A stretch of DNA of 64,000 bases from Rhizobium sp. C1 (GTDB taxonomy: Bacteria; Pseudomonadota; Alphaproteobacteria; Rhizobiales; Rhizobiaceae), in NCBI RefSeq assembly GCF_021026335.1, contig NZ_JAJNCY010000006.1:1-64000 (forward strand). Reading direction: 5' to 3'. The translations under genes were made by a program, and so were the position numbers. The first letter of the stretch is position 1, and each line of letters opens with the position of its first letter. This document shows, piece by piece, positions 42,233 to 62,088 of the stretch. The notes below the pieces were generated by a model that was not told where the DNA came from, did no database searches, and saw nothing but the letters and a program-made list of their open reading frames with translations.

Positions 42233-42281
42233 GTGAGCGGCTTCCATTTTGCTTGTGGGACGCGACGCGGATAACCCCACA

Positions 42282-42412
42282 CTCCGTCATGCCGGACTTG
42301 ATCCGGCATCCAGTGCGCGATGTCTATCGCGCAGGAAACTCTCGAGAGTCGCGGATCGGATGTGAAGGGTCCTTTCAGCCCGCAGACCCGGATCAAGTCC
42401 GGGATGACGGAG
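42282..42412. repeat. RIME-like palindromic intergenic element
   Basis: A 131-bp element whose 26-bp ends are inverted repeats matching at 24 positions: CTCCGTCATGCCGGACTTG at one end and CAAGTCCGGGATGACGGAG at the other. A second smaller palindrome (GCGCGATGTCTATCGCGC) lies inside. It resembles the mosaic elements described in rhizobia (RIME); the family name is my inference. Confidence 0.7.
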
Positions 42413-42440
42413 GATAGGGGAACGCCCTCCTCCCACAAAC

Positions 42441-48460: not shown

Positions 48461-48577
48461 GCTTTTTAATTTGATACTTTCACATCACCGCTTTTTCAAT
48501 CCTTCCTGCAAGAGGAATTTAAAGCTACCAATGAGGGCATGCGGGAGGATGTGTGTGGCGGGCGAGGGCCCCTTTCA

Positions 48578-48710
48578 CTCCGTCATGCCGGACTTGATCC
48601 GGCATCCAGCCGCGCGATGTCCATCGCGCGAAAGGACTCTCAGCAAATGCATCTTTCAGCCCGCAGACGCGGGCTGGCTGGATCCCGGCTCAAGGCCGGG
48701 ATGACGACGG
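48578..48710. repeat. RIME-like palindromic element upstream of pccB
   Basis: The second copy of the element at 42282-42412. It shares CTCCGTCATGCCGGACTTG and GATCCGGCATCCAG at its left end. The right end GGATCCCGGCTCAAGGCCGG is more diverged. The internal palindrome CGCGCGATGTCCATCGCGCG is conserved. It fills most of the gap between the regulator and pccB and ends about 24 bp before the pccB start. Confidence 0.7.
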
Positions 48711-52899: not shown

Positions 52900-54903
52900 A
52901 TGTTCAAGAAGATCCTGATTGCCAATCGCGGCGAAATCGCCTGCCGCGTCATGAAGTCGGCCAAGAAGATGGGCATCAAGACGGTGGCGGTCTATTCCGA
53001 TGCCGACCGCGAGGCCGAGCATGTGAAGATGGCGGACGAGGCCGTCTATATCGGCCCGCCGCCGGCGGCACAGAGCTATCTTCTCGCCGACAGGATCATC
53101 GAGGCCTGCAAGGCGACCGGCGCGGAAGCCGTCCATCCCGGCTATGGCTTCCTCTCCGAACGCGCGTCCTTCTGCGAAGCGCTGGAGAAGGAAGGCATCA
53201 TCTTCATCGGGCCGAAGGTGAAGGCGATCGAGGCGATGGGTGACAAGATCACCTCGAAGAAGATTGCGGCCGAAGCCGGCGTTTCGACCGTGCCCGGCTA
53301 TATGGGTCTGATCGACGATGCCGAACACGCAGTGAAGATTTCGAAGGAAATCGGCTATCCGGTGATGATCAAGGCGTCTGCCGGCGGTGGCGGCAAGGGC
53401 ATGCGCATTGCCTGGAACGACGAGGAAGCCCGCGAAGGCTTCGCCCGCTCCAAGTCGGAAGCAGCCTCCTCCTTCGGTGATGATCGCATCTTCATCGAGA
53501 AGTTCATCGTCGAGCCGCGCCATATCGAAATCCAGCTGCTCGGCGACGGCCATGGCAATGTCGTCTATTTGAACGAGCGCGAATGCTCGGTGCAGCGGCG
53601 AAACCAGAAGGTCGTGGAAGAGGCCCCATCGCCCTTCCTGGATGAGAAAACGCGCAAGGCCATGGGCGAACAGTCCGTCGCTTTGGCAAAAGCGGTGGAT
53701 TACCAGAGCGCCGGCACGGTCGAATTCATCGTCGACAAGGACCGCAATTTCTACTTCCTCGAAATGAACACCCGTCTGCAGGTTGAACATCCGGTGACGG
53801 AACTGATCACCGGGCTTGATCTGGTCGAACTGATGATCCGCGTCGCCGCCGGCGAAAAGCTGCCGCTGACGCAGAAAGACGTGAAGATCAACGGTTGGGC
53901 GGTGGAAAGCCGGCTCTATGCCGAAGACCCCTATCGCAACTTCCTGCCCTCGATCGGCCGGCTGACGCGCTATCGTCCGCCGCAGGAGGAGACGAAGGGC
54001 GGCGTGACGGTCCGCAACGACACGGGCGTCACCGAGGGCTCGGAAATCTCGATGTTCTACGACCCGATGATCGCCAAGCTCTGCACCCATGCGCCGACCC
54101 GCCTTGAAGCGGTCGATGCCATGGCCGATGCGCTGGATCGCTTCGAGGTGGAAGGCATCGGGCACAACCTGCCCTTCCTCTCCGCACTCATGCAGCATCC
54201 GCGCTGGCGCGAGGGACGGCTTTCGACCGGCTTCATCGCGGAGGAATATCCGGAAGGCTTCGGCCCGGTCGCGCCGGATGCGGAGAGTGTCCACCGCTTC
54301 GCCGCCGCCGCCCTCGTGCTGTCGCGCATCGCCAGCGAGCGCAACGCCAAAATCTCCGGCAGCCGCTTCACGGTCGGCGTCGGCAACGGCCACCAGAAGG
54401 TCGTGCTCATCGCCGGACATAATACGGTGAAGGCCGAGATCTCGCATCTCTCCACCGGCTTCGGCGTCAGCCTGGAAGGTGGGCCTGTGCTTCAGGTCGA
54501 GACGAACTGGCAGCCGGGCCATCCGCTCGCGGAGGTGCTGATCGAGGGCAAGCCGGTCGCCTTCAAGGTCCAGCCGGCGCCGGGCGGCTTCCGCATGCGC
54601 CAGCGCGGCATGGATGTGAAGGTTCAGGTTCTCTCGCCCCGCGTCGCGGAACTCGCCGCCCTCATGCCGGAAAAGGCCCCGCCGGACACGTCCAACCTGC
54701 TGCTCTGCCCCATGCCCGGCCTCATCACTTCGGTTCTGGTGAAGGAGGGCGACGAGGTTCAGGAAGGTCAGGCGCTCGCGATCGTCGAGGCGATGAAGAT
54801 GGAAAACATGCTGCGGGCCGAGAAGCGGGCCAAGGTTTCGAAGGTGCTGGCGAAGCCCGGCGCGAGCCTGGCGGTGGACGATGTGATCATGGAGTTTGCG
54901 TGA
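52900..54903 (+). CDS. pccA: Propionyl-CoA carboxylase alpha subunit
   Basis: The 667-residue biotin-dependent subunit. Biotin carboxylase fills residues about 1-450 (KILIANRGEIACRVMKSAKK, ATP-grasp KASAGGGGKGMRIAWN, FLEMNTRLQVEHPVTELITG). The BT linker domain follows, then the biotinyl domain with AIVEAMKMENML, biotin on Lys633. Works with PccB although five genes lie between them. Its stop is followed immediately by a palindromic repeat. Confidence 0.95.
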   Translation: MFKKILIANRGEIACRVMKSAKKMGIKTVAVYSDADREAEHVKMADEAVYIGPPPAAQSYLLADRIIEACKATGAEAVHPGYGFLSERASFCEALEKEGIIFIGPKVKAIEAMGDKITSKKIAAEAGVSTVPGYMGLIDDAEHAVKISKEIGYPVMIKASAGGGGKGMRIAWNDEEAREGFARSKSEAASSFGDDRIFIEKFIVEPRHIEIQLLGDGHGNVVYLNERECSVQRRNQKVVEEAPSPFLDEKTRKAMGEQSVALAKAVDYQSAGTVEFIVDKDRNFYFLEMNTRLQVEHPVTELITGLDLVELMIRVAAGEKLPLTQKDVKINGWAVESRLYAEDPYRNFLPSIGRLTRYRPPQEETKGGVTVRNDTGVTEGSEISMFYDPMIAKLCTHAPTRLEAVDAMADALDRFEVEGIGHNLPFLSALMQHPRWREGRLSTGFIAEEYPEGFGPVAPDAESVHRFAAAALVLSRIASERNAKISGSRFTVGVGNGHQKVVLIAGHNTVKAEISHLSTGFGVSLEGGPVLQVETNWQPGHPLAEVLIEGKPVAFKVQPAPGGFRMRQRGMDVKVQVLSPRVAELAALMPEKAPPDTSNLLLCPMPGLITSVLVKEGDEVQEGQALAIVEAMKMENMLRAEKRAKVSKVLAKPGASLAVDDVIMEFA

Positions 54904-54908
54904 GTTCA

Positions 54909-54956
54909 CTCTCCCCCCTTGAGGGGGAGATGTCGGCGTAGCCGACAGAGGGGGGT
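54909..54956. repeat. Left 48-bp inverted repeat flanking the DUF559 gene
   Basis: CTCTCCCCCCTTGAGGGGGA is followed by a GTCGGC-GTA-GCCGAC hairpin and AGAGGGGGGT. It matches the reverse complement of the right copy (55345-55392) at 44 of 48 positions. Its G-run lies four bases before the GTG start of the enclosed gene and probably serves as the ribosome binding site. Confidence 0.85.
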
Positions 54957-54959
54957 ACG

Positions 54960-55334
54960 GTGCCAAGTCGCACAATCTCGCCGAAGCTGAGGGCAAACGC
55001 CAAGAGGCTCCGGCGCGATATGACTGAAGCCGAAGCGCGGCTGTGGGCGCAATTGAGGGCGCATCGGCTGATGGGCCTGAAGTTTCGACGGCAATTGCCG
55101 ATCGCTGGCTATGTTGCCGACTTCGCCTGTGCGGAACACAAGCTGATCGTCGAGCTGGATGGCTCGCAACATGCGATGGGCGATGTACCAGATGCGGATG
55201 CGGTCCGGACGCGGCGGCTGAATGAAATCGGATGGACGGTTGTTCGTTTCTGGAACGATGACGTGATGAAAGATCTGAACGGTGTCTGCGACCACATTCT
55301 CGCGGTCATTCGTGAAAAGGGAAGTGATGTGTAG
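54960..55334 (+). CDS. DUF559 (Vsr-like PD-(D/E)XK) endonuclease-domain protein
   Basis: A 124-residue protein with the DUF559 pattern: AKRLRRDMTEAEARLWAQLR, GLKFRRQLPIAGYVADFACA (Asp), KLIVELDGSQH (Glu-x-Asp and His) and GWTVVRFWNDDVMKDLNGVC. These match the catalytic core of Vsr/PD-(D/E)XK nucleases. It starts with GTG 54960; ATG 55020 would cut into the domain. The gene is bracketed by 48-bp inverted repeats, suggesting a small mobile unit or a gene captured between repeats. Biological target unknown. Confidence 0.82.
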   Translation: MPSRTISPKLRANAKRLRRDMTEAEARLWAQLRAHRLMGLKFRRQLPIAGYVADFACAEHKLIVELDGSQHAMGDVPDADAVRTRRLNEIGWTVVRFWNDDVMKDLNGVCDHILAVIREKGSDV

Positions 55335-55344
55335 CGGGTGATGA

Positions 55345-55392
55345 ACCCCTCTCTGTCGGCTGCGCCGACATCTCTCCCTCAAGGGGAGAGAG
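55345..55392. repeat. Right 48-bp inverted repeat flanking the DUF559 gene
   Basis: The inverted partner of 54909-54956, starting ten bases after the nuclease stop. The central GTCGGC-TGC-GCCGAC hairpin is preserved. Confidence 0.85.
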
Positions 55393-55475
55393 TGACGGCG
55401 CTGCACGCGCATCGACCTTTCCAGCCGTATCGGCTGGGGAGATGTTGTGGAAGGCAGTGCGAGTGCGACTAGCCG

Positions 55476-55521
55476 TTCTCCCCCCTTGAGGGGGAGATGC
55501 CCGGCAGGGCAGAGAGGGGGT
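55476..55521. repeat. Variant copy of the G/C-run palindromic repeat
   Basis: Same orientation as the left copy and the same TCTCCCCCCTTGAGGGGGAG beginning. The central hairpin differs (GCCCGGCAGGGC). Between the DUF559 gene and scpA the DNA (55335-55582) holds only repeats and the scpA leader. Confidence 0.8.
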
Positions 55522-55582: not shown

Positions 55583-57769
55583 ATGTCTCAGAACCCCTCT
55601 CTGTCGGCTGCGCCGACATCTCTCCCCCAAGGGGAGAGAGTGAAGTCGCGCGACTGGCTCCCTCTCGCCTCGAAGGAACTGAAGGGCGCCGACCCCTCGA
55701 CCCTCAACAAGGACATGCCCGAGGGTATCACCATCAAGCCGCTCTATACGGCCGACGACCTGCCTGCTGAGGCAGCGACGGCGCTTCCCGGCGTTGCGCC
55801 GTTCACCCGCGGCGTGCGGGCCACGATGTATGCGGGCCAGCCGTGGACGATCCGGCAATATGCGGGTTTCTCCACCGCGGAGGAGTCCAACGCCTTCTAT
55901 CGCCGCAATCTCGCGGCCGGGCAGAAGGGCCTCTCGGTCGCCTTCGACCTCGCCACCCATCGCGGCTACGATTCGGATCACCCGCGCGTGGTCGGCGATG
56001 TCGGCAAGGCGGGTGTGGCGATCGACAGTGTCGAGGACATGAAGATCCTGTTCGACGGGATTCCGCTCGGCGAGATGAGCGTGTCCATGACCATGAACGG
56101 CGCGATCATTCCGGTGCTCGCGATGTTCATCGTGGCCGGCGAGGAGCAGGGCGTGCCGCGCGCCAAGCTCACCGGCACTGTGCAGAACGACATCCTCAAG
56201 GAGTTCATGGTCCGCAACACCTATATCTATCCGCCGGAACCGTCGATGCGGATCGTCGCCGATATCATCGAGTTCACGGCCAAGGAGATGCCGAAGTTCA
56301 ACTCCATCTCCATTTCCGGCTATCACATGCAGGAAGCCGGGGCGACGCTCTCCCAGGAGCTCGCCTATACGCTGGCCGACGGCATGGAATATGTGCGCGC
56401 CGCGATGAAGAAGGGCCTCGATGTCGACGATTTCGCCGGCCGGCTCTCCTTCTTCTTCTGCATAGGCATGAATATATTCATGGAAGCGGCGAAGCTGCGC
56501 GCCGCCCGCCAGCTCTGGTCGAAGATCATGACGGATTTCGGCGCCAAGTCCGAGCGCTCGAAGATGCTGCGCACCCATTGCCAGACCTCCGGCGTGTCGC
56601 TGACCGAGCAGGACCCTTATAACAACGTCGTCCGCACGGCCTATGAGGCGCTGGCCGCTGTGCTCGGCGGCACGCAGTCGCTGCATACCAACTCGTTTGA
56701 CGAGGCGATTGCGCTGCCGACGGAGTTTTCCGCCCGCATTGCCCGCAACACGCAGCTGATACTCCAGCACGAAACGGGCGTGACGAATGTCGTCGATCCG
56801 CTCGGCGGCTCCTATTATGTCGAGGCGCTGACGGCGCAGTTGGCCGAAGAGGCGTGGTCCATGATCCAGGAGGTCGAAAGCCTCGGGGGCATGACGAAGG
56901 CGGTCGAACAGGGCCTGCCGAAGATGCGGATCGAAGAAGCCGCGACCCGCAAGCAGGCGCGCATCGATCGCGGCGAAGACGTCATCGTCGGCGTCAACAA
57001 GTTCCGCCTCGAAAACGAGCCCTCGGTCGATATTCTCGAGATCGACAATGCCAAGGTCCGCGCCAGCCAGATCGCCCGCCTGACCCGCATCCGCGAGACC
57101 CGCGACGGCAAGGCGGTCGAAACCGCTCTCAAGGCGTTGGAAAAGGTCGCCGCGTCCGGTCAGGGCAACCTGCTCGCCGCCGCCGTGGAAGCCGCCCGTG
57201 CGCGCGCCTCGCTCGGCGAGATTTCCGATGCCATGGAGCGCGCGTTCTCGCGCCACCATGCCTCCACCCGCGTGATTTCCGGCGTCTATGCCGATGCCTA
57301 TCAGGAAGATGCGGAATACAAGGCGATCCGCGCCAAGATCGAGGCCTTCAAGGCTGAGCGCGGCACGGAGCCTTCGATCCTCGTCGCCAAGATGGGCCAG
57401 GACGGCCACGACCGCGGCGCCAAGGTCATCGCCACCGCCTTTGCCGACATGGGCTTCCGCGTCGACCTCACCGACATGTTCGAAACGCCTTCGGAGGTCG
57501 CCGACAAGGCGGTGAACAAAAAGGTCGACGTCATCGGTGTCTCCTCGCTGGCCGCCGGGCACAAGACGCTGATCCCGGAGCTGATCGCGAAGCTCAAGGA
57601 AAAGGGCGCCGATGATATCATCGTGGTCGCCGGTGGCGTCATCCCGGAGCAGGATTACCAGTTCCTGCGCGACGCCGGCGTCGCGGAAATCTTCGGGCCC
57701 GGCTCGAATGTCATGGCGGCTGCCAATGCCGTGCTGGGAGACATTGCCGGACTGCGGCGGAACAGGTGA
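55583..57769 (+). CDS. scpA: Methylmalonyl-CoA mutase
   Basis: A 728-residue B12-dependent mutase converting methylmalonyl-CoA to succinyl-CoA. The substrate domain has [35 protein letters not shown] and [20 protein letters not shown]. The C-terminal cobalamin domain has [20 protein letters not shown] (the DGHDRG His) and [14 protein letters not shown] 55583 follows GGAAAGGA. Residues 4-20 ([17 protein letters not shown]) are encoded by a copy of the intergenic repeat, an insertion absent from typical family N-termini. GTG 55640 is a possible alternative start directly before [13 protein letters not shown]. Confidence 0.93.
55593..55640. repeat. Repeat copy inside the 5' end of scpA
   Basis: 47 of 48 bases identical to the right repeat at 55345-55392 and in the same orientation. 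It lies in frame within the mutase gene after codon 3. Confidence 0.88.
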
Positions 57770-62032: not shown

Positions 62033-62055
62033 GGCGGCGCTCCTCATGACTCTCC

Positions 62056-62088
62056 TTCATACCGGGCTTGACCCGGGATGACGGAGAG
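62056..62088. repeat. Half copy of a RIME-like element
   Basis: ACCGGGCTTGACCCGGGATGACGGAG-type sequence matches the right arm of the element at 42282-42412. The left arm is missing. It lies between convergent genes and includes a CCGGG-CTTGA-CCCGG hairpin that may act in termination. Confidence 0.5.

Follow-up and report, generated by a model that had tools for sequence, protein, structure and literature searches.

A 64,000-nucleotide stretch of the Rhizobium sp. C1 genome (contig NZ_JAJNCY010000006.1, positions 1 to 64,000; hereafter the window) contains, between pccA and scpA, a gene for a small nuclease of the DUF559 family (PF04480) that is framed by two inverted copies of a dispersed repeat. 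Across the bacteria that we surveyed, genes of this family are often paired with repeats of the same build, and the purine-rich tails of these repeats are mostly directed at the gene. Enzyme and repeat co-occur and, in the one family compared, diversify together; the units stand in different neighbourhoods, and given sites either carry or lack a short repeat doublet. On balance, we favour the reading that a large class of repeats resembling repetitive extragenic palindromic (REP) sequences has its cognate nucleases in DUF559 proteins of this type, and that these repeats probably spread by cut-and-repair. Our findings suggest a previously unlinked pair of enzyme and repeat, perhaps mobile or maintained as a pair, which joins a nuclease family so far recorded solely as a domain of unknown function with a common class of bacterial repeats. 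The link was not found in the literature searched, which had most subscription papers outside its range.

Results

The two repeat copies around the DUF559 gene of the window form an inverted pair, the arms of which are 51 nt long, 92% complementary and 388 nt apart (Table 1). A preliminary description of the window, made from its letters alone, had placed inverted repeats with 44 of 48 matching bases around this gene between pccA and scpA, and its measurement proves about right. The GTCGGC/GCCGAC hairpin that it had seen in each copy is present in both as an inner hairpin, together with an outer hairpin with CTCCCC-n-GGGGAG arms (in the left copy CTCCCCCC-TTGA-GGGGGAG) and a purine tail pointing toward the gene. 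In the left copy this tail, GAGGGGGG, stands ahead of the GTG start at the position expected for a ribosome-binding site, as had also been supposed. The encoded protein matches the Pfam families DUF559 and MTES_1575 alone and no transposase family, and it is predicted to adopt a PD-(D/E)XK/Vsr-like fold.

The strength of framing was measured as the score of the best local inverted repeat between the 300-bp flanks of a gene, with a score of at least 40 taken as a strong pair. Among 61 genomes of relatives (the order sample), 35 carry PF04480, with 74 matches in total, and 41 of the 72 matches that were measured have a strong inverted pair; an early form of this count gave 40/72 against 1/314 controls. 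In a phylum sample, which includes 40 regions that we picked ourselves in favour of multi-copy genomes, 45 of 70 DUF559 genes among the matches listed are strongly framed. Taken together, the two samples yield strong pairs around 86 of 142 DUF559 genes versus 2 of 417 control open reading frames (ORFs) at the same loci, and around none of 298 control ORFs at distances above 700 bp; the controls are the longest ORFs of at least 100 aa from a crude caller, and they were measured from their ends, while DUF559 genes were measured from the edges of the domain. Neither of the two refuting outcomes named in the preliminary description was seen: DUF559 genes of relatives are associated with such repeats, which are alike in build and often not in sequence, and pairs of this kind are rare around unrelated genes. 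The explanation of the inverted pair as a local accident was rejected, given this rarity around control ORFs and the copies across the genome described below.

The orientation of the repeats is also consistent, with 78 of the 86 strong pairs being G-rich toward the gene, one C-rich and seven neither. The repeats vary between genomes mainly in the inner hairpin, and the outer hairpin and the inward purine tail are usually kept. A simple hairpin motif within 250 bp was found on both sides of 125 of 217 DUF559 genes, on one side of 75 and on neither side of 17; the corresponding numbers for 590 distant control ORFs are 2, 49 and 539 (at least one side: 200/217 versus 51/590). A further set of named loci gave 50 framed genes of 75, compared with 3 of 406 controls, and is biased because it was found with an alignment of 20 proteins that all came from framed genes. 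This set retains 75 of 80 rows, with L312 (run of N), L273 and L313 (near a contig end) and L263 and L267 (already in the earlier set) dropped. Its framed loci occur in Mesorhizobium, Sphingomonas, Caulobacter, Xanthomonas, Pseudomonas, a Thiobacillus bin and a Gastranaerophilales bin, and its unframed ones in Ensifer, an Agrobacterium, Neisseria gonorrhoeae and others.

Several individual loci were recorded in the course of this survey. Two tandem DUF559 genes at L132 (G003:C7:1823327-1824236) are both framed, with scores of 80 and 126. The 3.4-Mb genome G084 has ten PF04480 matches, some of them weak, and its seven measured DUF559 loci (L182-L188) are flanked by repeats of several subtypes. 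On a replicon of Sinorhizobium meliloti Ak57 (L361), a DUF559 gene lies in a long inverted repeat (score 208) and adjoins an ISRm16 transposase gene.

A pattern drawn from the outer part of the window's repeat has 59 matches in the Rhizobium sp. C1 genome at up to three mismatches, whereas the reversed pattern has none, so that the repeat is not a product of chance. These copies divide into subtypes. Of the adjacent copies separated by under 2 kb, 11 pairs are oriented like the pair in the window; nine of them (one possibly counted twice at contig ends) are short doublets with inward tails and gaps of 66-113 bp. The other two have longer gaps, of 432 and 486 bp, and each encloses a DUF559 gene, the repeat subtype differing from one to the other. 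The genome has three DUF559 genes, two of which are thus framed. Three doublets at dispersed sites have a common order of inner-hairpin subtypes, and two of them are also similar in much of the spacer, while the outer flanks of all three differ. One doublet, on contig C3, lies about 200 bp from the contig end, and the doublet at the end of contig C1 (1122629) may be the same element seen twice.

We compared the similarity of the proteins with that of their flanking repeats in 12 genomes of one family, labelled sphingomonad-like from their resemblance to named loci. Here, 35 of 46 DUF559 matches were measured, and 30 of them have a pair scoring at least 30. The two similarities correlate across genomes (rho 0.56), and none of 2000 within-genome permutations reached this value. 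Removal of 17 syntenic pairs leaves a rho of 0.53 over 368 pairs, again with 0/2000 permutations as high, which indicates that the pairing does not merely reflect a common neighbourhood. Among 14 similar pairs that were inspected (one counted twice), neighbours are common to five and not to nine, as judged within flanks of about 1.5-3 kb.

Nuclease and repeat also occur together at the level of whole genomes. Of the 61 order-sample genomes, 26 contain the hairpin motif frequently (at least 20 copies) and 35 rarely, and DUF559 is present in 23 of the former and 12 of the latter; the copy numbers of hairpin and DUF559 correlate with a rho of 0.76. The transposase domain Y1_Tnp (PF01797), typical of REP-associated tyrosine transposases (RAYTs), was found in none of six genomes of the window's genus, its own included, in 9/61 genomes of the order sample and in 2/26 of the hairpin-rich ones. 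A RAYT as the mover of the repeats in this genus is contradicted by these six genomes, insofar as PF01797 detects RAYTs.

The repeat class of DUF559 genes includes the known potential intrastrand triplex (PIT) or triplex motif (TM) repeats, and ycjD of Escherichia coli is a DUF559 gene. Earlier work on PIT elements and the intrastrand triplex is reportedly that of Hoyne and Maher. In its accessible text, the study of Holder et al. (2015; PMC4666352) describes the intrastrand triplex motif in 23 copies in E. coli MG1655 and in more than 260 genomes, sometimes as inverted pairs, presents it as a source of genome instability, and reports no mobility functions near TM sites. The interval between fabI and ycjD (1351407-1351760) contains TM copy 9 (1351204-1351239), at 167 bp from ycjD, and by eye a degenerate second TM copy overlaps the 3' end of ycjD.

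A sample of 119 enterobacterial-type genomes represents each genus once; 22 of them contain the TM pattern and none contains its reversed control. DUF559 was found below an E-value of 1e-10 in 13 genomes, 12 of which are among these 22; at E <= 0.001 the number is 20, and the seven weak matches, three of them in TM genomes, were left out. All 13 counted genes (one with an internal stop, one in two pieces) have a TM-type copy 8-54 bp past the 3' edge of the domain with its tail facing the gene, at up to four mismatches, and the one DUF559 genome that the exact TM pattern missed carries its own variant. No upstream copy appeared among the nearest hits, so the layout here is one-sided, unlike that of the window. 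Neither fabI nor sapF, the neighbours of ycjD in K-12, was found in the 1.5-kb flanks of any of the 13 loci; nine loci are linked by common neighbours on at least one side and four are not. Y1_Tnp is commoner in TM genomes (13/22 versus 25/97, p 0.0045; p-values are nominal, since the genomes are related). Among genomes of at least 3 Mb, however, this difference is gone (13/22 versus 23/52, p 0.31), whereas that of DUF559 persists (12/22 versus 1/52, p 3e-7).

The preliminary description had likened the locus to a minimal mobile element. Units at different loci and the presence or absence of repeat doublets suggest such mobility. The fabI-ycjD-sapF stretch is covered to at least 80% in 3,333 of 5,375 matching E. 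coli genomes. Fixed sites of E. coli vary in whether they carry a TM doublet. At fepB-entC, the filled form is covered to at least 80% in 2,752 genomes, and two shorter forms are without 186 bp. Two E. coli strains have one collapsed hairpin left at other sites. A side observation concerns lldD-trmL of E. coli YZ22PE106 (L402), where the interior of a TM doublet is swapped for another inverted repeat, which we take to resemble an IS50 end. In congeners of Rhizobium sp. C1, pccA is followed by the unit seen in the window (G001 and G002), a short doublet of a different repeat type (G004 and G005) or a third kind of repeat (G003).

A second inverted repeat pair, overlooked in the preliminary description, follows directly after the first unit (Table 1). 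Its last copy lies in frame in the N-terminus of scpA (55583-55652), where by our reading it adds about 20 residues; G000, G001 and G002 share this arrangement, which G003-G005 lack. The arrangement is comparable to the in-frame palindromic elements of Rickettsia, as described in the accessible part of the source (PMC3733652). The window also has another dispersed repeat, CCGTCATGCCGGACTTGATCCGGCATCC, at 42275-42419, 48576-48609 and 62050-62083, which resembles a CGTC-tagged REP; a repeat of this kind also lies between pccA and scpA in G003.

Table 1. Features of the repeat-framed DUF559 locus and its neighbours, in coordinates of the window.
Feature	Position	Strand	Remark
pccA	52900-54903		Upstream neighbour of the DUF559 gene
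Left repeat copy	54906-54956	-	Purine tail directed at the DUF559 gene
DUF559 (PF04480) nuclease gene	54960-55334	+	GTG start, 124 aa, PF04480 E 4e-42
Right repeat copy, inverted	55345-55395	+	Tail directed at the DUF559 gene
Second inverted pair, left copy	55477-55521	-	Inner hairpin of CCCGGCAGGG subtype
Second inverted pair, right copy	55591-55643	+	GTCGGC subtype, inside the scpA reading frame
scpA	55583-57769		Downstream neighbour

Discussion

In the repeat class that we propose, each copy combines an outer hairpin with a purine tail, which might return along the stem to form a third strand. An autonomous unit would consist of repeat, nuclease and repeat with tails inward, and the scattered short doublets would be its non-autonomous form, likely the 'empty' form of the unit. 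The nuclease may recognise its own repeat once this has folded into a hairpin or triplex and nick or cut at the repeat or at an adjoining target, whereupon repair from another copy would spread the doublet or the gene-bearing unit, as with homing enzymes. We infer these steps of recognition, cleavage and copying, and favour homing-like cut-and-repair over transposition proper because of the predicted fold and the unit-inside-doublet layout. As a tentative extension, PD-(D/E)XK nucleases with their own hairpin or triplex repeats could constitute a widespread class of mobile elements that home into their own doublets. If true, this would explain the origin of PIT/TM repeats in E. coli and hundreds of other bacteria and would assign a function to YcjD and to a large part of the DUF559 family. 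Should the enzyme act on folded repeats, bacteria would have solved independently, and for a second time, the task that RAYTs presumably perform on REPs. Both halves of the proposal are testable together in E. coli K-12, which has ycjD and 23 mapped TM copies.

Several observations weigh against cognate nucleases that spread their repeats. A strong two-sided pair is lacking around 56 of the 142 DUF559 genes, around 25 of the 75 in the named-locus set and around the third gene of Rhizobium sp. C1. New loci picked by the tool in the phylum sample reached the threshold in 12 of 29 cases, and the higher share reported above stems from our own choice of regions and multi-copy genomes. DUF559 is absent below E 1e-10 from 10 of the 22 TM genomes, including G257 (21 copies) and G426 (10 copies), and from three hairpin-rich genomes of the order sample (G016, G037 and G041). 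The mirror expected of a triplex is similarly uneven: the tail mirrors at least 75% of the stem arm in 64 of 77 repeats, and the mirror exceeds composition shuffles at 0.05 in only 38 of them. Many units are syntenic (five of the 14 similar pairs and nine of the 13 enterobacterial-type loci), so movement of the gene may be rare. Three E. coli strains without ycjD have an efflux operon at that site, identified as eefRABCD and read as lost from ycjD strains in the accessible part of a 2026 paper (PMC12817139); the ycjD locus is thus not a simple insertion. Finally, the comparison of empty sites that the preliminary description had proposed yielded the present and absent doublets without fixing a target duplication. 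None could be defined at the pccA slot of congeners, on Azospirillum and Sinorhizobium replicons or at E. coli doublets; fepB-entC, the sole clean empty site, has by our reading at most a 3-bp TAA duplication, and other sites are altered beyond the insert.

The main rival is a maintenance role on folded repeats, which we consider rather unlikely. The nuclease would then resolve repeat hairpins or triplexes that stall replication, the repeats would spread otherwise (by slippage or recombination), and repeat-rich genomes would keep the gene. Such a role fits the co-occurrence of enzyme and repeat, but it leaves unexplained why the gene stands between two inward-tailed repeats and why the type of nuclease tracks the type of flanking repeat.

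We regard as improbable that DUF559 proteins are Vsr-like mismatch repair enzymes, as proposed for Caulobacter VsrA, with the repeats merely serving as ribosome-binding site and terminator. The predicted fold is indeed Vsr-like, and the left repeat supplies the purine tail before the GTG start. According to the accessible text of the VsrA study, CCNA_02930 contains a DUF559 domain, and cells that have lost a solitary cytosine methyltransferase depend on this protein for their SOS response (PMC12907096). However, the window protein falls below the cut-off of the Vsr model TIGR00632 (16.7 versus 97.85 bits), expression signals would not require a cognate repeat type and would hardly be so rare at 417 control ORFs, and a Caulobacter DUF559 locus (L279) is itself framed by such a repeat, with a score of 62. 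The VsrA case fits the mobile or the maintenance reading; it also suggests an ability of these proteins to cause DNA damage inside the cell.

It is very improbable that these genes serve defence or restriction and land by chance in repeat-rich slots: the models of large anti-phage proteins that the domain matches weakly and over part of their length (E 1e-4, 9e-4, 2e-5 and 0.0065) are 1550-1911 aa long, the neighbours here are pccA and scpA, and defence gives no reason for cognate repeats. Least credible of all is a reading of DUF559 as a passenger among ordinary REPs that a RAYT encoded elsewhere moves, since the REPIN-like architecture (inverted REP doublets) and the excess of Y1_Tnp in TM genomes are offset by the loss of that excess in larger genomes, where DUF559 tracking persists, and by the absence of Y1_Tnp from the six genomes of the genus and its scarcity in the relatives and in the hairpin-rich genomes.

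Comparison with known systems

The framing of one gene by terminal inverted repeats, and the gene-less short doublets of the same orientation, recall insertion sequences and miniature inverted-repeat transposable elements, from which the unit differs in that no transposase family was matched; a target duplication could not be fixed at the sites compared.

Homing endonucleases of the I-Bth0305I type belong to the EDxHD class. Among the structures that Foldseek ranked, the predicted DUF559 fold agrees with their catalytic fold, and the window protein shares 20-27% identity with these enzymes and Vsr over the aligned part. Unlike them, its gene is free-standing between two others and is framed by dispersed repeats.

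The likeness to PIT/TM repeats lies in the hairpin with a purine tail, a putative third strand, and in the intergenic, dispersed occurrence with inverted pairs. The window copies differ in that a second hairpin, about 16 nt long, separates the stem from the tail. PIT/TM elements are defined, in the accessible text, by loops of 1-6 nt that join stem and third strand (PMC4666352), and loops of this length are found in the TM-type copies beside enterobacterial-type DUF559 genes and not in the window copies.

The closest parallel is with RAYTs and REPINs, in which the gene also stands beside dispersed palindrome copies that form inverted doublets and diversify with it; each distinct RAYT has its own repeat class, according to the accessible part of Bertels and Rainey (2011; PMC3116915). 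The preliminary description's analogy with REP-associated transposases is sound in layout, doublets, orientation and co-diversification and fails for the enzyme, which is unrelated to RAYTs, with a predicted PD-(D/E)XK-type fold and without an HUH/Y1 domain (PF01797). The system formed by DUF559 and its repeats is best read as an analogue, not a homologue, of the RAYT-REPIN system.
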